Positions 1,400 through 60,658 of a stretch of DNA of 64,000 nucleotides are shown piece after piece (within the stretch, counting starts at the first letter, position 1; each line of letters begins with the position of its first letter). The stretch is taken from the NCBI GenBank assembly GCA_026874595.1, contig CM049317.1:13258882-13322881 (forward strand), in the 5' to 3' direction. The translations under genes and the position numbers were made by a program. The DNA is from Sipunculus nudus. Taxonomy: Eukaryota; Annelida; Sipuncula; Golfingiida; Sipunculidae. The notes under the pieces are model-generated. The model was not told the origin of the DNA and did not search any database. It worked only from the letters and a program-made list of their open reading frames with translations.

Positions 1400-3405
1400 C
1401 CTATCCGTGGTTACTGGTCGTGCTCCGTCAAACGGTACAATGTGCGACCACGGATGAGACTCTCCATGAACAGATTGGGAAGTTACCGTCATTGGCCGTA
1501 ACGACACCACGAGGATCCGTGAAAATCAGTACTTCCTTGAATGATATACTCAGACCTCCCCCAGTCCAGAGACTCCGTGCTGTCTCCGCCATCATCGGTA
1601 TGTGGTTCGTGACTGGTCATTTTCCCTGATCTTATCGCCGTGAAACCGTTTCTAAACCATACTAAATATCTCACACACCGTGGGAATCCGCCCCATAGAA
1701 CACGTTTGCTGTACTCAAATCGTTAAAACTTTCGCTTAAAGCATTATTGTAATCGAAAAGTGTGCGTTTCCCACGGATAGTTCGTGATTCCGCAATTCAA
1801 GACCATCCGTCGCCGTCAAGACTCTCATCCGTGACATTGTGACTTACACTTAAAGACGAAGTCTCCTGTAGCTCTGATTACAGCTGGGACAACCAGGTGA
1901 TTTGCGTGTTGAACTATATTTTTATTATTGATTATGGTTAAACGGCCTTTGCGTCCCAGCGCCCTTTTTAGTTCGTTCTGATTGGATAATTAATTTGTAT
2001 TTTGTTATGTATACAGTCATGTGGATTGGTAACGCGTTATTTGTTTTCTTTAAGAAATTTTCTACCCTCGAAAGTATGGAATGATTGGTGGCGGAAAAAA
2101 ATAATACGATGAAATCGTATTTACAATAATTGAAAGTTATAAATCTGTCAGTGTAACTTCATTCTGCTTATTTATTTTTCTTTTAAGAAGGAATATCCTT
2201 TAAAAAAATTTGGTAACGCGAGTGTATACTTTTACTTTAGAGAGCTTTGAAATATAATTCAGGCTTACTTTTAATCCAACAAGGCATATTTAAAACTTCT
2301 AAGTCATTCAAAGTTTAAATAAAAGATCGTAGTGAGAAGCAAAAGCGGAAATAACCGTAAATTACAATAAATGTGTTACAGTGTCCCACATTCCGTCATC
2401 TTAGAATTGCTTTCAATTTGTCTACTGACATTCCTTTATTATACCTTATAAAATATAACATTTCAAAATTAATAAATGATACAAATTGTGTGTCTCCTGG
2501 ATGGGCCATGATGTTACCAGTGAAAATGTAATGCATAAATCCTATGTCTTAAACATGTTGGCACTTGGACAGGGACCAACACGTGAGCCTGTCATCTCAG
2601 CGGAGAGCTATGGACCGATCGTCACAAAATCGTTAAAGATAGGGGCTACAATATTTTTTTTAATTCTTGAAATTTTTACATATTACATGAGCTGTAATGT
2701 CCTTTCAACAGAGATATATGAAAGTCAATGTTTGAAATAGCGCACGGTACGTTGAAGCAGTTTTTTTTTTGCTGAATCCCTAGAATGTATTTCCTTCAGC
2801 GTCCAACAGATGGTGCGAGTGTTGTTAAGAACCAACTTCATGTAGTATATATATAAGTCATTTGCACTGGTTGGCCTTGTATATGAATCCTAATAGCTTC
2901 CAGGTAGATTTTAATTTAAGGAGCACATAGGAAGGTACAGAAGGTAAATTACCAGATGAGTTAATTTTCATGAAACAGTAATCTAAATTGAGTATCTGTG
3001 GTCAAAAAGCTGTTGACTTCACCATAGCGCTTCTCGTAAAATGATTTTATCTTTATTTTCATAACAACGGCGGACCTTATGACTTAACTACTAATTTAGC
3101 TTTTCCCTGATAAGTAAACCTACCAAAAACACTGCATGCTCAGAATCTGACAAACTTATCCTCATAGCCAGAAAATTCTAAACAATTCATATTACTAGGA
3201 AACATCGCATGCTGAATTTACCAACAATACATTCCTTGAAACCACCAGTCACGATTCTTAAAACCTCCATTGTAACGTGTTATTGGTGTAAATAGCTGAG
3301 TACTAGCTAGTGATGATAGTAATATGATATTTTTATAATCATATATCCTGTGATAATACTGACGTGGGTATGATAAGGTAATGTCTCTCTCTGTATGTTT
3401 CCCTC

Positions 3406-18020: not shown

Positions 18021-18588
18021 ACGTGTAGAAACACAGCGCTCATGCTAATCTGGAAATTTCTGGGCTGGTCGCGGATGAAAAATTATAAATAGGGGCTGTG
18101 TTTTAGAGCCGGGGAGGGGAGAGAAAGAAATATTCCAGGGGACATGGAAGAGTGTGAGTCAGTTTGTGTACCTTTCCGATAATTGCATCAGTTATAGAAC
18201 TTTTTCGAAAATTTGTAACGGATTTTATAAAGTCTTCAGTTCGCCTTTGGGATCACTACCAGAATTTCACTTTTGAATTACAACAGATTGATTTTTTGAT
18301 TGAATTGGACTATTATTCTCTGAGAAGATTTATGTGAACTGTTCATCTGGATTATACGTTTTTAAGGACTTATTGTCGCTGTGACAGTGGTGGTATCCAG
18401 GTGCTGTACACTTTATTTATTATACTGTGTAGTAGTATTGATTTGCTGTTGCACTGTTGTTATACTGTGTGATTGTATTGATTTAGTGTATTGTAATGTT
18501 AGGATTGTTGTAAGAATCAATAATAATTATTTGTCAACAAAAAACCACTGACTTCTATATTCATTCCCCTATACATTTCACGCTGCCT
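18021..18588 (+). repeat. 5' LTR remnant of the Gmr1-like element
   Basis: It starts at GTAGAAACACAGCGCTC and is highly similar to the 3' LTR at two stretches, but lacks the first ~120 bp (from TGTTAC) and the last ~85 bp (after CACGCTGCC). A TATA box, TATAAATA, lies at 18084-18091, just before GGGGCTGTGTTTTAG, the probable start of the RNA. The polyadenylation hexamer AATAAA found in the other LTRs reads AATCAA here. No primer-binding site is present after the broken end. Confidence 0.85.
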
Positions 18589-18603
18589 TAAAAAAAGTTA
18601 GAA

Positions 18604-19290
18604 ATGCAACATGAGCTAGCATTAAAAGAGAGGGAAGAACATGAAAGGTTAGAAAGAGAAAGATTTGAAAAAGAAATAGAAAGAGAAAGACTAGAAAAAG
18701 AAAAAGAAATTGAGTTTAGACGACTAGAGTTGGAAAGACTTAAACTAGAACATAGTCTATGTGCTGCCCCATCTCACAGTTTTGATGTTACTAAACACAT
18801 TAGACTTGTCCCAGCTCTTCAAGAAAAAGAGATTTGATAAATATTTCTTACACTTTGAGAAGGTTGCTGTAAATACAAAATGGCCTAAGGAAACTTGGAC
18901 TATGCTATTACAAAGTGTATTGACTGGCAAGGCCAGAGAAATTTATACAGACTTTTCAGTAAAAGCCGCTGCTGACTATGGCCAGGTTAAACCGTTAATC
19001 CTAATAGGTTATGACTTAGTTCCTGAAGTTTACCGCCAGAAATTTAGAAATTGGGAAATGCACAAAGAACAGACCTATGTCGAATTTGCTAGGACAAAAG
19101 AGCAGTTGTTTGATCGCTGGTGTTGTTCTAAAATGTAATGAAAGATTATGGCAATTTGCTTTTTTGTTGATATTGCTTTAAGAATTTTAGCGCTGCATTA
19201 GCACAAATGTTAAAACTTTTCTTGAGGTTAAAAAGTCCTGAAACACTTGAAATTGCAGCTCAATTAGCTGATGATAATTCATAAACACAC
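18604..19290 (+). pseudogene. gag (capsid) remnant of the Gmr1-like element
   Basis: The first frame (18604-18837) encodes a highly charged Glu/Arg/Leu coiled-coil leader and then FDVTKHIRLVPALQEKE. A frameshift near 18835 moves the reading to the next frame, which continues DKYFLHFEKVA, then WPKETWTMLLQSVL and QTYVEFARTKEQLFDRW to 19138. This is the capsid-like region of gypsy Gag. Beyond 19139 the frame is broken again, but ETLEIAAQLADD near 19240-19275 continues the family's Gag. Gag would form the particle that packages the element RNA. The start at 18604 is the first ATG after the LTR, but the true upstream leader appears deleted. Confidence 0.85.
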
Positions 19291-19481
19291 AAAATGCCCT
19301 TTACAAGCAAATCAAACCAGTTATTCACAAACAAGAATGTAAATCAGTATGGTCAAAAGAAGTTTAAAGCGCAGTCACCCAGTACTGGTAGTCCTGATAG
19401 TTCAACAAGGTCCATTGTTACACTTCAGTCCACGTCCACTGTGTCCGAGTCCAACAAAGACCAGTCTTTGCAAAGAAAATC

Positions 19482-19523
19482 TGTAATTACTGCAAAAAGG
19501 AAGGTCATCTAATATCTGACTGC
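19482..19523 (+). pseudogene. Nucleocapsid CCHC zinc knuckle
   Basis: The 14 codons read CNYCKKEGHLISDC, a perfect C-X2-C-X4-H-X4-C knuckle, which binds RNA in the Gag nucleocapsid. It is in a different frame from the capsid region (frame 3 against 1 and 2), so it is disconnected from the Gag start. The same frame runs on to 19856 through a Ser/Asp/Lys-rich linker with repeated DSC-EY/F units. Confidence 0.9.
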
Positions 19524-20764
19524 TTGAAACATGCAAATAAACCAAAGGGTAAACCATCTGGTTTTGTTTCAAAATCTATGCATAGCCTAGTACAAGAGCC
19601 GGGCTCTTTTCATGTAAACACGGGGTACAACTCCTTTATTGACTCTTATAAAGAGTTTGATGCTACGGAGGCCAACGTGCCGTCTGACTCCAAAGAAGAA
19701 TCCGTAGCTTGCGGGGTAAAAACCATATTTGATTCCTGCAAGAAATTTAACAAGGCTAGGTCCTTTCAAGACTCCTGCGAGGAGTATCCTGTAATTAAGG
19801 CTAAGTCCTTTTATGACTCTTGCGAGTATTTCAAATTAGGCCAGGTCCTCTTATGACAAACAGAAGTTTGTTTCTGCTGAGGAAAATTCCTCTGTTGACT
19901 CCAATGGAGAGTTTGATTGTAATAAGGATGTAGATTCCTTTAGTGACTCTGAAAAACAGATTATGACTGACACTATCAGTGCCAGTTCTTTGTTTGATGA
20001 AACTGAGGTAGAAGATTCCTCTCCTGACTCCGAAATTGAGTTGTTTGAGCCATTCATACATGAAGGTTTTGGGTCACTTTCAGGTGATTTTTCAGATTCT
20101 TCCCTATTAGAATTCTTAGGGACATTGGTTCAGGCAAAACGCTCATGTTAGCAAACACTTTGCCATTTTCTAATTGGTCTTTTACTGGTGCACATTGCAC
20201 TTGTTAATGGTGTGTTTGGTGTCAGACAAGCACACTTCAGTTCCGCTTCCCAGTTTACATTTAAAGTCAGATTTGATTTCTGGGAATATTACTGTGGGCA
20301 AAAGAACTAATTTACCCTTTAAGGAAATTCAGTTGCTGCTAGGAAATGATGTTGCAGGTGACAAAGTACAGCCTGTACCAATAGTGACAGAAAAGCTGTC
20401 ACTTGATCAGGACACTGATCCTGAAAGTCAGGAAATTCCTGGTTTGTATCCTTTATATGCTGTAACTAGATCTATGGCCAAGAAAAAAAAAACACATGAG
20501 GATAATGGTCAAGAAAATAACACTCTGGGAGTCACTAGTGACTCGTCTAACGACTCGTCCGTACAGATTGCAGCGTTTTCAAGGTCAGAACTTATCGCGG
20601 AACAGCATCAGAACCCTGATATTTCATGTGTGTTTCCCAGGGCGATTTCTAAAGATGGACACAGAACCCAGTTTGTTTCTATGTTAAAAATGGAGTGCTT
20701 ATGCGTAAATGGCGACCACCTGATGTATGCGCTGATGATGAGATGGCCATCAAACATCAAATAG
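19524..20764 (+). pseudogene. Gag-pol linker and aspartic protease remnant
   Basis: After the knuckle come acidic spacers with repeated SFxDSC and DS motifs. The protease starts near 20112 with ILRDIGSGKT: the active-site triplet, normally DTG or DSG, reads DIG (20121-20129), so catalysis should be lost. A stop follows at about 20205. The fold resumes in another frame with NLPFKEIQLLLGNDVAGDKV (about 20310-20370), the C-terminal LLG-ND segment of retroviral-type proteases. The tail LYPLYAVTRSMAKK and SRSELIAEQHQNPDIS leads into integrase. The protease would cleave the polyprotein, but this copy cannot. Confidence 0.8.
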
Positions 20765-21740
20765 TAATGCCCAAAAATTATCGCAATGAAATTCTAAGCA
20801 TGGCAAATGAGGCACCTTTGTCTTGCCATTTAGGTATAAATAAAATTTATCAAAAAGTTAGTACACATTTCTATTGGCCTAACCTCAGGACAGATGTTGT
20901 ACATTATTGTAAATCATGCAACACATGCCAGATGGTAGGCATTGCAAGCCCAATCAGAATCCTCCTAAGGCCCAACTTAGGCCTATTCCTGCTTTCGAGG
21001 AACCGTTTGGAGGATTATTGATTGACTGTGTTGGACCACTGCCCAACACAAAATCTGGACATGAATACTTGCTGACAATTATGTGCGCATCTACCAGGTT
21101 CACTGAGGCAATACCGTTGCGCAAAATTAATGCCTAAAGTATTGTCACGGCTCTGACTAAGTTTTTTTTTACAACTTTTGGATTACCAAAATCCGTCCAG
21201 TCTGACCAAGGGTCTAATTTTATGTCTGGTTTATTCAAGCAAGTTATGTTTGAGCTAGGTATTAAACATTACAGCTATTCGCCCTCGAGCGTTTTCACCA
21301 GACATTAGAAAACATGATTAGGACTTATAGTTATGAGTTTTTCCTTGTTTTCAGTCCCTTTGAACTAGTTTTTTTACACTTATTTCGCGGTTCATTAAAA
21401 CTGCTTAAAGAAAAAAAAACTCTTGTGTGAAAATCCTGATTCTCTTAGTTTATTGCAGTATGTCTCAGACTTTCGCACTAAACTACACAATGCTTGTCAG
21501 ATTGCAAAGTCAAATCTAAAATCTGTACAAAGTAAAATGAAAACAATGTATGACAAGCACACCGAAAGTAGGACGTTTGAGCCTATTGAAACGTTCCTTG
21601 CCTTTCTACCCATCCCTGGCAGACCTCTGCAAGCTAGGTATTTTGGTCCTTACATTGTTGACCACAAAGTCAGTGATTTAAATTACATACTGTTAACACC
21701 AGATAGGCGTAAGAGAAAAAAAACAACTCAGCCATGTTAA
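20690..21740 (+). pseudogene. Integrase remnant (HHCC, DDE, GPY/F)
   Basis: The N-terminal zinc finger is readable: a HLG histidine, HFYWP, then CKSCNTC (about 20820-20930). The catalytic core follows in a shifted frame, with IDCVGP giving the first Asp (near 21024), QSDQGSNF the second (GAC at 21204-21206), and ALERFHQTL the Glu (GAG at 21287-21289). The second Asp and the Glu are about 27 codons apart instead of the usual 35, with a frameshift, so a small deletion is likely. The C-terminal GPY/F module appears as ARYFGPYIV (about 21636-21662). Integrase joins the DNA copy to the genome. Its place upstream of RT is the family hallmark. Confidence 0.88.
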
Positions 21741-21794
21741 CATTTTGAAACCATATTATATTATACCATGTTGACAGAAATCAAGTATAACCGG

Positions 21795-22433
21795 TTGATG
21801 CTAAAATAAGTGCTATTTCTGCATTTCCTAGACCAGAAAACAAAAAAAAAGCAAATAATGCGTTTTCTTGGTATGGTTGGATACTACAGGAAGTTTTGTC
21901 CAAATTTTTCTGCTGTAGCTAAACCTTTGACTAGTTTGTTAAGGAAGAAACAAAAGTTTGTATGGAATGTTCAGTGTGAAAATGCATTTCAGAATTTGAA
22001 AGCAATTCTGAAAAGTTCACCAGTTTTAGTAGCTCAAGACTTTTCTGTACCTTTTAAGTTAGCTGTAGATGCTTGTGATCGCTGCTGGTGCTGTGTTGTT
22101 ACAAGAAGACAGTGATGGCATAGATCATCTAATGTGTTATATTTCAAGAAAGTTTAATGCAAACCAGAAAAAAAACTACTCCACTATTGTAGGAGAATGT
22201 TTGGGGCTTTGATTTTGGCATTGCAACTTTTTGAAGTTTATGTTACTTCATCAGTCAAGCCTATCATTGTCTTCAGTGATCACAATCCCCTCACGTTCGT
22301 GAACAAGTTGAAGTGTAAAAATCAAAGACTGTTGAGATAGAGTTTGTTTTTACAGGATTACAATCTTACAATCAGACACATTAAAGGGAAAGACATTAAT
22401 GTACTTGCTGATCGCTTATCGAGTTGTTTATGA
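21795..22433 (+). pseudogene. RT thumb and RNase H remnant; RT catalytic core deleted
   Basis: Only about 55 bp after the integrase end, the sequence resumes at VDAKISAISAFPRP and then MRFLGMVGYYRKFCPNF, the region C-terminal to the RT palm. The fingers and palm, including the YxDD box, are absent, an internal deletion probably exceeding 1 kb. RNase H follows with KLAVDAC (first Asp), a frameshift, YSTIVGECLGL (Glu) and FSDHNPL (Asp), and ends ADRLSSCL before TGA at 22431-22433. That RNase H closes the polyprotein and no integrase follows it, which confirms the order. The RT frames are broken, so no replication activity is expected. Confidence 0.87.
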
Positions 22434-22540
22434 AATGTTGTTAACCAGATGTTTATGTAATGTTGTGAATAAGATGTTTTTTTTTTTAATATTGTTACAA
22501 TTTAGTGGGTTTTTTTGTAGAAAACTTTCTTTTATCTTAC

Positions 22541-22552
22541 AGGAGGGGGGAG
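22541..22552 (+). promoter_or_regulatory. Polypurine tract of the Gmr1-like element
   Basis: AGGAGGGGGGAG stands immediately before TGTTACAGG, the first bases of the 3' LTR. This is where plus-strand DNA synthesis would be primed in LTR elements. Confidence 0.88.
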
Positions 22553-23305
22553 TGTTACAGGTGTCATTTTTATTGTGTGCAGCAGTGTTGCATGTGTCTG
22601 TGTAGCGCTAGCATTGTCCGTTGCCATGGGAGACGCGCGAGCCGGGCCGGCCCACGCGTAGGGTCGGACCTGCAGAAACACAGCGCTCATGCTAATGTGG
22701 AACTTTCTGGTCTGGTCGCGGTCATCGAGCGCGTGTCTTGTAATGTTCTTTGAACGTGTGTATTGTGTATTGTTGGCTTCTATGGGATGTTCGTGAAATA
22801 GACGTTTCCGATAATTGCAGCAGTTATAGACCTTCTTCGAAAATTTGTAACGGATTTTATATAGTCTTCAGTTTGCCTTTAGGATCACTACCAGAATTTC
22901 ACTTTTGGATTACAACAGATTGATTTTTTTATTGAATTGGACTATTATTCTCTGAGAAGATTTATGTGAACTGTTCATCTGGATTATACGTTTTAAAGGA
23001 CTTGTTGTCGCTGTGACAGTGGTGGTATCCAGGTACTGTACACTTTATTTGTTATACTGTGCAATTGTATTGATTAGCTGTTGTACTGTTGTTATACTGT
23101 GTAATTATATTGATTTAGTGTATTGTAATGGTAGGATTGTTTTAAGAATAAATTATTATCATTTGTTAACAAAAAACACTGACTTCTTTATTCATTCCCT
23201 TAGACATTTCACGCTGCCTAGTGTTACAGAATCTGATTTTTATCTCCATAACAAAATTTATGCTCGTCACGACTACGTCATCTGTTGTAACTAGGTTCCG
23301 TAACG
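22553..23305 (+). repeat. 3' LTR of the Gmr1-like element, about 753 bp
   Basis: It begins TGTTACAGG right after the polypurine tract and ends GGTTCCGTAAC(G), the family's TGTTAC...GTAACA termini with the last base mutated. AATAAA at 23147-23152 is the likely polyadenylation signal. Compared with the other LTRs it lacks the TATA block (TATAAATA and GGGGCTGTGTTTTAG in the 5' LTR). Instead it has about 90 bp of different sequence (near 22725-22805). The distal ~85 bp, starting AGTGTTACAGAATCTGATTT, are shared with the solo LTR but missing from the 5' LTR. Confidence 0.88.
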
Positions 23306-24954: not shown

Positions 24955-25406
24955 CCGTTGTTACAGGTGCTCTTTTTATTGTGTGACACGGGCGTAACTC
25001 GAGTTGTGACACCCTCGCCGGGCCGTTTGTTGCATTCTATGTTTAATCTGTACTGGTTGATCTCTCGTTGTCATGCTGGCCTTGGGCTTTCTCGCCTGGT
25101 CGTGAGTCTCGTGTACACCATGGTGTGTCTCTGTGCGTGTTTACCGTGTTTTAGAAGATCTTCTAGACTGTTCGGGAGGTGGAAATTTCTCGGGTTGGGG
25201 TGAAGAGTATATGAAGGGGCTGTGTTTTAGCGCCGGGGGCAGAGAGCAGAGAAGTTTTCCAGCGGACGCAGAAGCGTATGTGAGTTTCTTGGACCTTATC
25301 CTACGTGTGCGGCAATTATAGATTTTCTTCAGAGTTTCTCCTGGATTTTGTGCATTTGGACTTCAGTTAACTTTGTGGATTGTTACAAAAGCTTTACACT
25401 GGACTG

Positions 25407-27464: not shown

Positions 27465-27949
27465 CTGGACTGTCATTCTCCGAGAGTATACATTTAAGGA
27501 ACTTATCGTTGTGATGGTGTTGGTCCAGGTACTGTGCACATTATTTTCTGTGTGATTGTATTGGTTTGTTGTTATACCGCTGTTTTACTGTATAATTGTA
27601 TTGATTTAGTGTATTGTAATGTTAGGGTTGTATTAAGAATAAATTATAGTTATTTGTTAACAAAAAAAAATACTGACTTCTTTATTCATTCCCCTAGACA
27701 TTTCACGCTGCCAAGTGTTATAGAATCTGATTTTTTTTATCTCCATTACAAAATTTGTGTTCATCACGCATACGTGATCTGTTTATATTAGGTTCCGTAA
27801 CACCGTATTTTAGTGGTTAGAAGAAATTTGAACTGGAAATTTGAGAATATCACGTGCATTATTTATAAGTGTACACATGCTGTTTAATTGAATTTTTATT
27901 TACTTTAGCTAAGTTAAATCTAGATGTCATAACCCGGTATTGATACTTT

Positions 27950-46088: not shown

Positions 46089-47583
46089 CCTGCATTCATT
46101 CATCAGTTTAAGTGCAAATAAATTGAAAGCAAACACTATCTCATTATCTTTGTTACCTAACATTTTTCATTAGTTCATATCCTGTTTATGCTAAATCAGT
46201 CATTTTCGCAATTTGGACATCAAATTCCTACGGAAATACATCCCCGTCTACACTATTATGAGCCAGTTAGAACTTATGAAATTTATCAAAGTAGGATGAT
46301 TTTTTTTCTTCCTATTGAGAAAATCATGTCTTAGATTTTTTTTTTCCTTTTAGAAGACATATGTGTGGTTTAGGTGAATAAGATATGGTTCCCGTCTCAT
46401 GATTAGCTTATTATAACAAGAGAGAGGTCAATGACCTAGATTCCATTGTGAAATGAGAATGAAGTTAACCGTATTATAAAACGCATCAGATATCAGCATT
46501 TGGCCTTTTGCAATACATATACGAGTCAATGGTGTGTGCTTGTAGGTTTCTTGAATTCTACTTTCTTTATACGTGGCCTATATGAATAATAAAAAAAACT
46601 CCTAGTGTGTTGTTCTGACATCAAAGTCAACCACTGTGGCTTTCATGAACTTCAGCCATTTGCTCCGGCGGTGTATCTTGAGATGTCTAGGCAGGGCGCC
46701 CTGCAGTATTTAAGCCCAATTACCTTTTCAGTAAATTGCGTCCGAGCCACAGGCGAGATATATATGGAATATACCTTTGCCTGCTGTCATTTGGCTAATC
46801 ATAAATTGTTTTATGTTTGAGTATCATACTTATTGGCTGTCTATAAATTTTTCAATCATATAAATGGTAATATTGTTGTTGATAGATAAATAAGATGATA
46901 ATTATTTAATTATAATAATTATTATTATGATAAAACTCCCGACCGTGAGTGCTAAAGGAACATGATACGGTTTATGAAAGCAACCTTTAATTACTAAATT
47001 TTCTAAGTATCTTTTGCAGGCGCTATATAAAAAATTATATTACTTGAAGATTATCCATAATTATCAATAAGTCACGACTTTAAATCTCAAAAACTCGAGA
47101 ATATTGATACGACCTCAAGGATATTTATTGAGTTCTGATTTATCCTGTACTAAAATTTATTTTAGGAATTGGTCATTTTTGTTCGCCTAATATAAGAACT
47201 CCCTTTATCCTAATTCTTTATTCTAATTTTAAACACTGCTATGCATTAGCCTTGGGTATTAATGTAACCATATAATCACATGGTTTTAACTTCGCATAGA
47301 ACTTCTAGTTCGGAACCTAATTTTAGGACACGATGGGCTGTTAGAAATGGGATATAATAGACTGTTTTCTGAAATAAATGAAACACTAGATGTTTTGAAT
47401 CGCCCAATGATCAAAACACAAGGAAGCCTCCTTCCATTTTTTTGCTCATAATTGAGTAATTTGACGTTATATAATAAAATGGGGACAAGCTGTCCAAATA
47501 TTACAACCTCTTTGAATACTGGCCTTTTCGTTTCTGAAAGTGAAATTAACACATACAAGACAAAACAACCCGGAAATATTATT
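46089..47583. other. Unassigned DNA
   Basis: GGCGCTATATAAAAAATTAT near 47020-47040 resembles a LINE 3' tail, but no RT sequence precedes it. Nothing else is recognised. Confidence 0.4.
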
Positions 47584-47654
47584 GGCCCGACCGGGGGTCG
47601 ACCCCGGGAGCTTTGGTTTACGAGACCGACGCTCTACTACTTGGCCATCGAACC
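47584..47654 (-). tRNA. tRNA-Thr(CGU)-like sequence, probably a pseudogene or SINE head
   Basis: On the minus strand the acceptor arms GGTTCGA and TCGGGCC pair over 7 bp (two G-U). The T stem CCGGG/CCCGG is perfect around a GTCGACC loop. The anticodon loop CTCGTAA gives CGU with a 4/5 stem. The D stem pairs at only two positions, and the T loop has G where T54 is expected. The length is 71 nt. A TTTT run lies about 22 nt downstream on the minus strand. Decay of the D arm and T loop argues against a working gene. Confidence 0.45.
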
Positions 47655-57685: not shown

Positions 57686-58424
57686 ACCGGTTTAAATACC
57701 AATCTGTATAAACTACGTGATGATTTGATATTCTGCAACTTACTGTTGTTGCCTTTTTGTTCGCGAGGGTTTCAAATTCGCGATTTTTGCGAAAGGAGTA
57801 TCATCGCGAAAATAAAAACCTTCGTGAATAATCGTGCAATCATGGATGGCACGTCGAAAGAAAAATGACTGATATTTTTTTATAAAAAATAAGATTTTGC
57901 ATGTTCAAAGGATTTATATTATAAATGATTTCAGATTTTTTTTTTAAATTTACCAGTCATAAATGAACAATTATTTCACCTCTTTCGATGTTAAATTGTC
58001 CAAATATTAAGCTTTTGTGTAGGTTTTTATATGGCGCGACCGGCAAAATGAAACCTTCGCGAAAATTTGATCTGAGAAGATCGCCAAATTATAACCCTGA
58101 AAATATGAAGCCAACCACACTATATGGCATAATAGTTAATTTCCTGGCTCAATAACGAGAGAAAAAAATGCATAGCATTGCTATCAGCATTTGTGAATAA
58201 TTAATCGTGTTGTCTTTTTCATATCGTTTGCTTGCATTCTGATACATTTTTCTCAATGTTTTGTTTCCTTATACCAATGCCATCTACGTATTTTCTCTGT
58301 ATACATATACATATTAAGCAAACACTAGAGGTTTCTAGGAAAAATATAATATTATTGGTATGTCTTGTTGTAATTCTATTATAACCTTTATCATTTGCCC
58401 AGAAAACGTGGGCCATATGTTGAA
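57686..58424. other. Unassigned DNA with TTCGCGAAAA-type repeat sequence
   Basis: Units such as TTCGCGAGGGTTTCAAATTC, ATCGCGAAAATAAAAACC and CCTTCGCGAAAATTTG (57758-57830 and 58040-58075) look like a dispersed element with inverted CGCGAA motifs. Similar words occur near 24375 and 24735. No boundary could be set. Confidence 0.4.
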
Positions 58425-58428
58425 CTAG

Positions 58429-58585
58429 TGTTACCAAGACAAACTGCTCAGGGGAAAACATTGGGCCGATCCCGGATTCGAACCCTTGTTGGTGGCGTAC
58501 AAGTCCGGCGTGCCAACCGCTTTGCTAGAAAAGCAAGCTTCACTAGCGAGACAGTTCGGTCCGCTTTTTATGTCACCCCGTAACA
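58429..58585 (-). repeat. 3' LTR of the TRIM (minus-strand reading) with tRNA-like module
   Basis: The minus strand carries TAGCAAAGCGG (58517-58527), a perfect A box, and GGTTCGAATCC (58474-58484), a perfect B box, about 32 nt apart as in tRNA genes. The anticodon and T stems do not pair well, so the module is a promoter-like tRNA relic and not a tRNA gene. Confidence 0.8.
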
Positions 58586-58596
58586 CACCCCCTCTC
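58586..58596 (-). promoter_or_regulatory. Polypurine tract of the TRIM
   Basis: On the minus strand GAGAGGGGGTG abuts the TGTTAC of the 3' LTR. It resembles the tract AGGAGGGGGGAG in front of the gypsy 3' LTR at 22541. Confidence 0.7.
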
Positions 58597-58683
58597 AAGA
58601 GCGTTCTGCTATCAGAACAAAACTAATTATCCCAGGAGTCACACTTTGGTGAGCTTATTCCCTGGACCACAAAGTTTACAGTC

Positions 58684-58701
58684 TTCCCGGACAAGCCCCC
58701 T
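58684..58701 (-). promoter_or_regulatory. Primer-binding site, tRNA-Pro type
   Basis: On the minus strand AGGGGGCTTGTCCGGGAA stands two bases after the 5' LTR. It differs at 3 of 18 positions from the tRNA-Pro primer-binding sequence known from gammaretroviruses (the first, ninth and last bases). This is where reverse transcription would be primed. Confidence 0.75.
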
Positions 58702-58703
58702 TT

Positions 58704-58859
58704 TTTTACGAAGACAAATTGCTCAAAAGGAAGACATTGGGCCGATCCCGGATTCGAACCCACGTTGGTGGCGCACAAGTCCGGCGTTCCAACCGCTTCT
58801 CTAGCAAAACAAGCTGCCTAGCGAGACAGTTCGGTCCGCTTTTATGTCACCCCGTAACA
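58704..58859 (-). repeat. 5' LTR of the TRIM (minus-strand reading) with tRNA-like module
   Basis: The B box GGTTCGAATCC lies on the minus strand at 58750-58760, a perfect match to the consensus. The A-box position, 58793-58803, reads TAGAGAAGCGG, one base off TRGYNNARNGG. The distal end reads TTTTAC on the plus strand instead of TGTTAC. Confidence 0.8.
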
Positions 58860-58863
58860 CTAG

Positions 58864-60658
58864 AAAGCAGTCAGACATCGCATACATATCCATCCATTAT
58901 TGCTGATAACAGGAAAAAGGTGGTTTTTAATAAAGTTGTCCACATTCAACCTTTAAGAAATTTACACATTAATGTTTCCACTGAATGATGACAATTGCCC
59001 ATTGCAAAATGGTAAAATGTCATTTAAACAAAAATACATAATGAAGATACAAATTTCCTACACAAAATTGTAGACTTTCTTACTTGTTTGAATTTATGAC
59101 CCACCCACAACTTCATCAAAATTCGTTTGAAGTAAATTTGCTAACAAACAAACCAACCAACTTATCAACCAGTGCAAAAACATAACATTTCCTGTAAGAG
59201 GTATAAAAATTTTTCCATTTATGACCGTATATGCTAGCAACAAACACGGTTCCAAAAAGAATATTGGATATGTTTCACTCTGCTGATATATAAATGGACA
59301 ACACTGAAGGGGATAAAGTATACTCAGACATCGTTCAGAGGTGATTTTAATTTGGAACTGTTAGTGTTCCTAAAAGAGTAGGGTACAACTTATTACAGTG
59401 AGGGAAGGGGGGGGGGTCAAAAACTCAAAGGAAATTGAAGCTTATTCAAGTAACGGTGACAAATTTGACATACTGTGCCGCTCCGGACAACAGACGGGTT
59501 TATGTTAACCTACCGTCACAAAGCAACTGTCAGCCATGTAGCAACGCTAATATTTCAAGCGGCGGGTAGCTGTCCCCTGTCCTCCAATGTCACCGCGTTC
59601 TGTGCGCTCGTTTTTCAAGAAAGCTGTCCTTCACAAACATGTTGCAAATCTTCCGAGGCGTCATGTCAGCCCTGAGTAGGTTTTGTTTTAAGTTTATACG
59701 AATGGCTTATATATGGCACAATTCATTCGATTCAGATATGTTACTGTATATTTTGTGTACAGTCTTCGAATATGCTTTCCTTTGTGCAACCTTCAGCAAA
59801 TGAAAACTTGAAGTTCAATTTAATATTATTGTCATTAGGTAGAAAATCTAATTTTATAACTGGCAATATATGGAACGTTGAGCAAGAGTTCAGGAAATGA
59901 CAGAAAGGATGATATTATTCTAAAATGTAAAGTTTATGAAGTTAATGTTAAAATCCAGAACTTCTCATGTGCATTAAAACAACTTCTTCCGAACGATTGG
60001 CTAGACGCGTTCGGGCGTTACTGGGGAGGGGGGTGGCAGTTTCTCTTCGTGTGGTGTGGGAACCTTTATGATTTACGTTTAAAATATAAACTATTGTTGA
60101 AGCAATTCGGGTAGGAAATAAGAGCGAAAATTCTCGTTTCAGAAACAAGTTATATGAACATTTCTTTCGCAATACAAAATAATTTCTTATGTTTGTCCTT
60201 AAAACTTGCACTAATTATTAAATTTGTGCAATTAATGATTGACTTCGACCATGCTGTGGAAACAGGTGAAACATATCACATTATCAGCCATTTTGGTAGT
60301 TTAGTTATTTCTGATAGATTACAATTCATTGATGTTTGGGGAATATAACAACGCCAAGCCATACTTTTGTCATTAACTACCAATTTTTTTATGGATTGAA
60401 ATGAGATATTTTTTTAATGCAATTCTTTTAATTGTCAAACTGTGGGGAGGATATGATATGGTATGTACCTCTGTTTGAAAATGTTATTGGGAATATGTAA
60501 ACATTTTAACATATAACAAATATGTTGACATTTTATTATTAATATCATGATATTTAGACAAAATTTAATTGGAATTGACACAAGTTTCATCATTGGATGG
60601 AGACGTATATACTGAAAACGAAATGCCAACCAATGACTCGGGGGGGGGGGGGGGGGGG
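58864..60658. other. Unassigned DNA
   Basis: Runs of G10 (59407-59416) and G19 (60640-60658) are present. A GC-richer patch lies near 59990-60060 with an inverted CCAAT (GATTGG near 59995). No gene is seen. Confidence 0.45.

Follow-up and report, generated by a model that had tools for sequence, protein, structure and literature searches.

A Helenus-type miniature LTR retrotransposon of Sipunculus nudus with tRNA-type promoter boxes, and the Gypsy family that probably mobilises it

The window analysed here, a stretch of 64,000 nucleotides from Sipunculus nudus, carries a short LTR retroelement on the minus strand at 58425-58863, target-site duplications (TSDs) included, with 431 bp between the TSDs. 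Read along the minus strand, the left TSD CTAG (58860..58863) is followed by a 5' LTR of 156 bp (58704..58859), a non-coding interior of 118 bp (58586..58703), a 3' LTR of 157 bp (58429..58585) and the right TSD CTAG (58425..58428), and no open reading frame of at least 100 aa overlaps the element. The interior contains a primer-binding site (PBS) of tRNA-Pro type, judged against the host tRNA-Pro gene, with the core GGGGGCTTGTCCGGGA at 58685..58700, and closes with the polypurine tract (PPT) GAGAGGGGGTG at 58586..58596, which adjoins the 3' LTR. The two LTRs are 89.2% identical, and their divergence is 9.7% in the family comparison. The first-pass annotation had described a terminal-repeat retrotransposon in miniature (TRIM) with exactly these parts on this strand, and every one of them was recovered; its LTR termini TGTTAC...GTAACA hold for the 3' LTR only, the 5' LTR running from TGTTAC to GTAAAA.

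Each LTR also holds a box A and a box B on the same strand at tRNA spacing, as had been proposed. The 3' LTR bears box A TAGCAAAGCGG (58517..58527) and box B GGTTCGAATCC (58474..58484), the 5' LTR bears box A TAGAGAAGCGG (58793..58803) and an identical box B GGTTCGAATCC (58750..58760), and the distance from box A to box B is 43 bp start to start in both. A site that we label TATA-like lies further upstream, CATAAAAAGCGG (58561..58572) starting 45 bp before box A in the 3' LTR and CATAAAAGCGG (58836..58846) starting 43 bp before box A in the 5' LTR. Scored against consensus box patterns, with 20,000 dinucleotide shuffles per LTR as control, the 3' LTR pair has no mismatch (none of 20,000 shuffles as good) and the 5' LTR pair has one mismatch, in box A (2 of 20,000 as good). 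Box pairs with at most one mismatch were absent from the rest of the 64-kb window.

The host genome of 1,426,538,692 bases in 153 contigs was searched with the whole element and with one LTR. The 4030, 3257 and 2834 places returned by the element, LTR and join searches (the last described below) are first-look candidates rather than copies, and since only the 40 best candidates were scored per DNA query, neither the number of copies nor the shares of the different forms are representative. From these best candidates 72 loci were read, leaving 68 distinct ones after four re-fetches were dropped: 46 with the LTR-interior-LTR structure, 8 single LTRs, 10 with at least two interiors and 4 partial. 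TSDs were scored in the 55 loci that both begin and end with a near-complete LTR. Exact 4-bp duplications flank 36 of the 55, compared with 3.2 expected from flanks paired across different loci, the corresponding figures being 1 against 1.1 for 3 bp, 0 against 0.1 for 5 bp and 6 against 1.0 for 6 bp. AT-rich sites are common and 11 of the 36 duplications read ATAT; the remainder are varied in sequence, which indicates independent insertions and bears out the expectation of further copies with duplications of their own. In the array L020, a single ACCT duplication lies outside four LTRs. The LTR-LTR divergence of 43 full copies ranges from 1.9 to 15.4% with a median of 8.5%. Two pairs of loci were retained in all counts, namely L061 and L064, which share flanks, and L052 and L053, scored as single LTRs 9.4 kb apart with alike flanks, which may not be true solo LTRs since PPT-like sequence precedes both. 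An exact 23-nt LTR pattern had no occurrence in the viral contig collection or the genome contig collection, and a phage search gave no match. Two primer-site versions, ending CCGGGAT and CCAACGT, coexist in the interiors of L008, L018, L028 and others, and the CCAACGT version matches tRNA-Pro in its first part only.

TRIMs with tRNA-like LTRs have been described from fungi, animals and plants under the name Helenus (Kojima 2024, PMC10886601), with reports from six animal phyla and 51 families in bivalves (PMC10886601). The sipunculan element resembles them in its TRIM structure, the box A and box B of its LTRs, its PBS and PPT, its 4-bp TSDs, its solo LTRs and its tandem arrays, the latter reported there for LTR-11_DR (PMC10886601). 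Its 431 bp, with LTRs of 157/156 bp and an interior of 118 bp, fall inside the published range of 311-1263 bp, and animal Helenus elements are described with 4-bp TSDs and, in bivalves, with tRNA-Pro among the primer sites (PMC10886601). Since the testable structural features agree, the window element is placed in Helenus, a kind already known, the assignment being made by published description and structural features. The likening to Cassandra in the first-pass annotation therefore stands as regards the anatomy of a TRIM with tRNA boxes, and the notion of an unusual animal counterpart falls, as Kojima 2024 had already named such elements (PMC10886601). Plant Cassandra shares the TRIM structure, LTRs that each hold a pol III promoter of small-RNA type, and tandem arrays, but its promoter is of 5S type and that of the window element of tRNA type. 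Membership in Cassandra itself is ruled out, no 5S match being found by Rfam at E<=10 in 58400-58900. Another animal TRIM, biv-TRIM of bivalves, likewise occurs as tandem arrays of repeat and interior and as terminal repeats standing alone, but differs in its terminal repeats of 202-218 bp and interior of 77-80 bp, and the excerpted description gives it no unambiguous PBS and does not mention pol III boxes (PMC6934838, in part).

Unlike the tRNA-like LTRs described for Helenus, the LTRs of this family are not recognised as tRNA by Rfam or ARAGORN. The covariance search of the LTR that the first-pass annotation had suggested came back empty: the Rfam tRNA model has no match in the element stretch at E<=10, and within 58400-58900 the only Rfam match at that threshold is Trp_leader (E=7), taken as chance. 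None of the 20 sources with copies matched the tRNA model at gathering score, and ARAGORN called no tRNA in the window copy or in 128 family LTRs. The "tRNA" label of the LTRs rests solely on the boxes and their spacing; the promoter is thus of tRNA type in having boxes and spacing beyond chance, and not in any resemblance that the tRNA models detect. Nor are the boxes conserved above the LTR background within the family, a check that the first-pass annotation had likewise proposed: the mean column conservation over 128 LTRs is.935 for box A and.932 for box B versus.928 elsewhere, ranks of 76 and 79 among 147 LTR windows. Box conservation was accordingly rejected as proof of selection, and it says little either way within one amplified family, where boxes are inherited from recent ancestors. 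Both boxes were located in both LTRs of 40 of 43 copies when up to 4 and 3 substitutions were allowed.

Two structural observations adjoin this subject. A hairpin at family LTR positions 36-64, which reaches from just upstream into box A, has a median energy of -12.1 kcal/mol over 128 LTRs compared with -4.5 for random 29-nt LTR windows, and -9.5 and -4.8 kcal/mol in the window copy's own LTRs. Elsewhere in the window, 47583-47654 on the minus strand matches the Rfam tRNA model at 39.7 bits with no ARAGORN call and may be a tRNA gene, a relic or a SINE head.

The boxes suggest LTR-internal transcription by pol III, for which the Helenus paper reports no experiment (PMC10886601). Runs of four or more T (T4) were surveyed in the 43 copies, three of which were skipped for lack of a located box. 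Behind box B, 36 of 40 5' LTRs and 32 of 40 3' LTRs carry such a run, in most cases at a distance of 15 nt, the point at which a tRNA gene would terminate, and it should cut many pol III transcripts short. Between boxes A and B, none of the 40 5' LTRs has a T4 run and two of the 40 3' LTRs do, and in four of 40 copies the whole stretch that begins at the 5' box A and reaches the 3' LTR lacks one. A genomic RNA made by pol III would have to extend past the T4 of the 5' LTR and may stop at that of the 3' LTR; the run behind box B could thus be a leaky terminator, possibly passed over in the first repeat and effective in the second.

The same TRIM might instead be transcribed by pol II from the TATA-like site, with the boxes as a passive relic of a captured SINE or tRNA. 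In both LTRs that site precedes box A by 43-45 bp, which would suit such an arrangement, although the site would serve either polymerase, and the T4 run behind box B, box conservation no higher than the LTR background and the silence of the tRNA models all fit it as well. Against it, the polyadenylation-type motifs AATAAA and ATTAAA, present in both Gypsy LTRs checked, are absent from the 157-bp 3' LTR of the window copy, the one Helenus copy covered by this check; the presence of both boxes in both LTRs of nearly all copies and the published statement that conservation between Helenus families lies in the boxes (PMC10886601) are further points against a relic. Pol II transcription of this kind appears unlikely to us. 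The breakpoints of L119 and L147 would place an RNA start at LTR position 45; this was rejected as only a hint, because 5'-truncated LTRs begin across the whole repeat (23 rows, five starting between 37 and 48 and three of these from L119).

The mobiliser of animal Helenus has been presumed to be Gypsy on the grounds of PBS similarity and TSD length (PMC10886601). The window holds a broken copy of a putative partner family of this kind at 18051..23305 on the plus strand, with a partial 5' LTR that ends at 18588 before any PBS, remnants of integrase and RNase H, a PPT, and a 3' LTR that spans 22553 to about 23305. A second copy, L097, aligns with the window in 11 blocks, nine of them within 18.05-23.3 kb at 75-87% identity and the other two being further LTR pieces (24961-25406 and 27487-27802). 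Pfam domains appear in L097 as rve (1764-2123) followed by RVT_1 (2708-3370), and in the window copy as H2C2 (20653-21021) followed by RT_RNaseH_2 (21810-22115). The partner family is therefore a Gypsy with integrase upstream of reverse transcriptase, an order also reported for Gmr1 Gypsy elements (PMC8220671), and the likeness to Gmr1 is one of domain order alone. Primer site, polypurine tract and LTR termini are common to the Gypsy family and Helenus, the Gypsy PPT and LTR start GAGGAGGGGGAG|TGTTAC resembling the Helenus GAGAGGGGGTG|TGTTAC.

A primer-site pattern occurs at 698 places in the genome and a reversed control at none. Forty of the 698 sites were classified on 801-bp and 601-bp stretches, comprising 20 stretches on contig C1, drawn from the 24 sites at the head of the list, and the 20 at the head of the list for C2; the C1 sites left out were 5621660 (a copy of L079's locus), 12763304 and the site of L013, and site 7857040 falls in the same stretch as its neighbour. 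A Gypsy LTR with Gypsy interior was found at 14 sites, a Helenus LTR with Helenus interior at 9, a Helenus LTR followed by neither interior at 7 (four of which continue into antisense LTR or antisense tRNA-Pro) and a Helenus LTR with Gypsy interior at 2. Six sites had neither element on both sides, one had none before a Helenus interior, and one, L091, scored as Gypsy-Helenus over 33 bp, is more likely a truncated Helenus.

The tRNA that probably primes both elements can be read from the genome. ARAGORN identified a host tRNA-Pro(AGG) gene in L255, and the PBS of the window copy matches the complement of its 3' end including CCA at 15 of 18 positions, that of copies such as L002 at 18 of 18 (CCA complement added). 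A pattern made of the CCA complement and 14 further tRNA bases outside the 18-nt primer site, with at most two mismatches, hit 13 genome sites and no control site, one of the 13 being the tRNA-Pro gene of L255. Seven of the remaining 12 were read: two lie after a Helenus LTR end (L112/L252 and L115, the latter matching antisense tRNA-Pro at 58 of 63 bases), two after a Gypsy LTR end (L253 and L257), and three are ambiguous (L254, L256 and L098). As antisense tRNA-Pro copies stand directly after both Helenus and Gypsy LTRs, they support tRNA-Pro as the actual primer for Helenus and for its Gypsy partner. In L087 and L094, the Helenus LTR and PBS run straight into an antisense Helenus LTR, with the junction at CCGGGATTYGAACCC, which is similar in the tRNA-Pro T arm and in the LTR's own tRNA-like part.

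Helenus LTRs joined to Gypsy interiors were sought with a query from L081 that starts in a Helenus LTR, crosses the PBS and ends in Gypsy gag. With the best 40 candidates scored, 38 of the 41 rows listed span the join, L081 included, and a 36-nt join pattern has 29 sites at up to three mismatches (reversed control, 0). The 22 aligned joined loci have their joins at the LTR/PBS boundary with differing spacers. L081 and L097 combine a Helenus 5' LTR with a Gypsy 3' LTR about 5 kb on, the two outer flanks being AT tracts. This is the layout to be expected if Helenus plus-strand DNA was passed at the PBS to Gypsy minus-strand DNA by second-strand transfer. In ten windows lying 4.15-5.75 kb downstream of other joins, neither LTR was present. 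Nine joined loci were read closer in; seven were resolved, in six layouts, and for L142 and L146 no far end was located. The joined copies with their 3' side read are mostly short or broken composites, not full Gypsy elements. Both outer ends were read in seven composites. The 4-bp flanks agree in four of them (CTCT in L119, TGTT in L145 and ATAT, within AT tracts, in L143 and L144) and disagree in three (L140, L147 and L148).

A tree of about 300 bp of the Gypsy part, with 22 joined and 14 pure copies and L095 left out, required 9 switches of label, compared with a mean of 11.4 and a minimum of 8 for shuffled labels, 96 of 1000 shuffles being at or below 9. On this short tree the joined copies appear not to form one clade, the switches lying only slightly below the shuffled mean.

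Two features of single composites are recorded beside these. In L119, about 546 bp of unassigned sequence (2620-3166) separate LTR positions 39 and 40, with a small inversion beside them. L141, L142, L144 and L145 have gag joined to positions 281-294 of the Gypsy LTR, little downstream of that LTR's TATA-like site and possibly at the Gypsy RNA start.

LTR elements fused by template switching are described for Triticeae (PMC1950507), and the joins reported here suggest strand transfer between co-packaged Helenus and Gypsy RNAs. They might alternatively have arisen by DNA recombination after insertion at the shared 16-bp PBS, or by nested insertions, in which case they would not identify the partner. 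Both elements are numerous with the PBS common to them, the composite structures are varied, and the three composites whose 4-bp flanks do not match would be at home in such a history. The concentration of the 22 aligned joins at the LTR/PBS boundary with differing spacers argues against it, as do the four composites whose outer flanks match as for a one-piece integration, two of them (CTCT and TGTT) outside AT tracts, and the tRNA-primer copies beside both LTR types, which place reverse transcription at this very site. We regard recombination after insertion as an improbable source of the joins in general; it could account for part of them, or a few composites could have been amplified.

Strand transfer is the reading we favour, if by a narrow measure: Helenus and the Gypsy family would often share particles, and transfer at the common tRNA-Pro site would repeatedly have put the tRNA-type LTR on the partner's interior. 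The same reading would have gag-carrying composites with a leading Helenus LTR move as units, with the CTCT flanks of L119 and the TGTT flanks of L145 as the traces. If true, this is direct fossil evidence for the element that mobilises a pol III-type TRIM, a partner indicated here by recombinants and not only, as in the Helenus paper (PMC10886601), by PBS similarity and TSD length. For Cassandra, the autonomous partner is called unknown in a passage of PMC7215508.

The explanation as a whole, a high-copy Helenus-type TRIM with a tRNA-type box A/B promoter in its LTR that moves by way of Gypsy machinery, is in our judgement very probable. The RNA would start in the 5' LTR about 10-20 nt upstream of box A and, as the recombinants suggest, would be packaged in virus-like particles of the integrase-before-RT Gypsy. 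Host tRNA-Pro probably primes reverse transcription at the PBS, as supported by the copies that run into antisense tRNA-Pro, and the PPT, to judge from the anatomy, would prime the second strand. Gypsy integrase would then insert the DNA and leave the 4-bp duplications seen at the copies, while a second-strand transfer between co-packaged templates would place a Helenus LTR on a Gypsy interior. The question addressed is how gene-free pol III-type elements find LTR machinery. By pointing to the mobilising partner, the recombinants and primer copies give the finding more weight than a routine annotation, and joins at the primer site, together with genomic copies of the primer tRNA, offer a sequence-level way in which a partner can be named and co-packaging tested.

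A tandem or dimeric SINE, of two tRNA-derived units and a spacer moved by a LINE, is scarcely credible and was ruled out: the unit size and boxes do resemble a SINE head and tandem arrays do occur, but the LTR-interior-LTR order, the fixed TGTTAC...GTAACA termini, the PBS and PPT, the lack of any tail seen and the 4-bp TSDs, which bound LTR-INT-LTR elements, single LTRs and arrays on the outside, all speak against it.

A minor observation concerns the assembly. A COX1 search of the genome returned 11 rows, nine long ones on small contigs, C60-C89, and one weak on C5. The COX1-type gene of L170, one of the nine long ones, has nearest bacterial or archaeal relatives at most 58% identical and looks bacterial by its sequence, for which reason the assembly probably includes bacterial sequence, from a symbiont or a contaminant; C123 holds what we take, by recognition, to be a bacterial cbb3-type gene.
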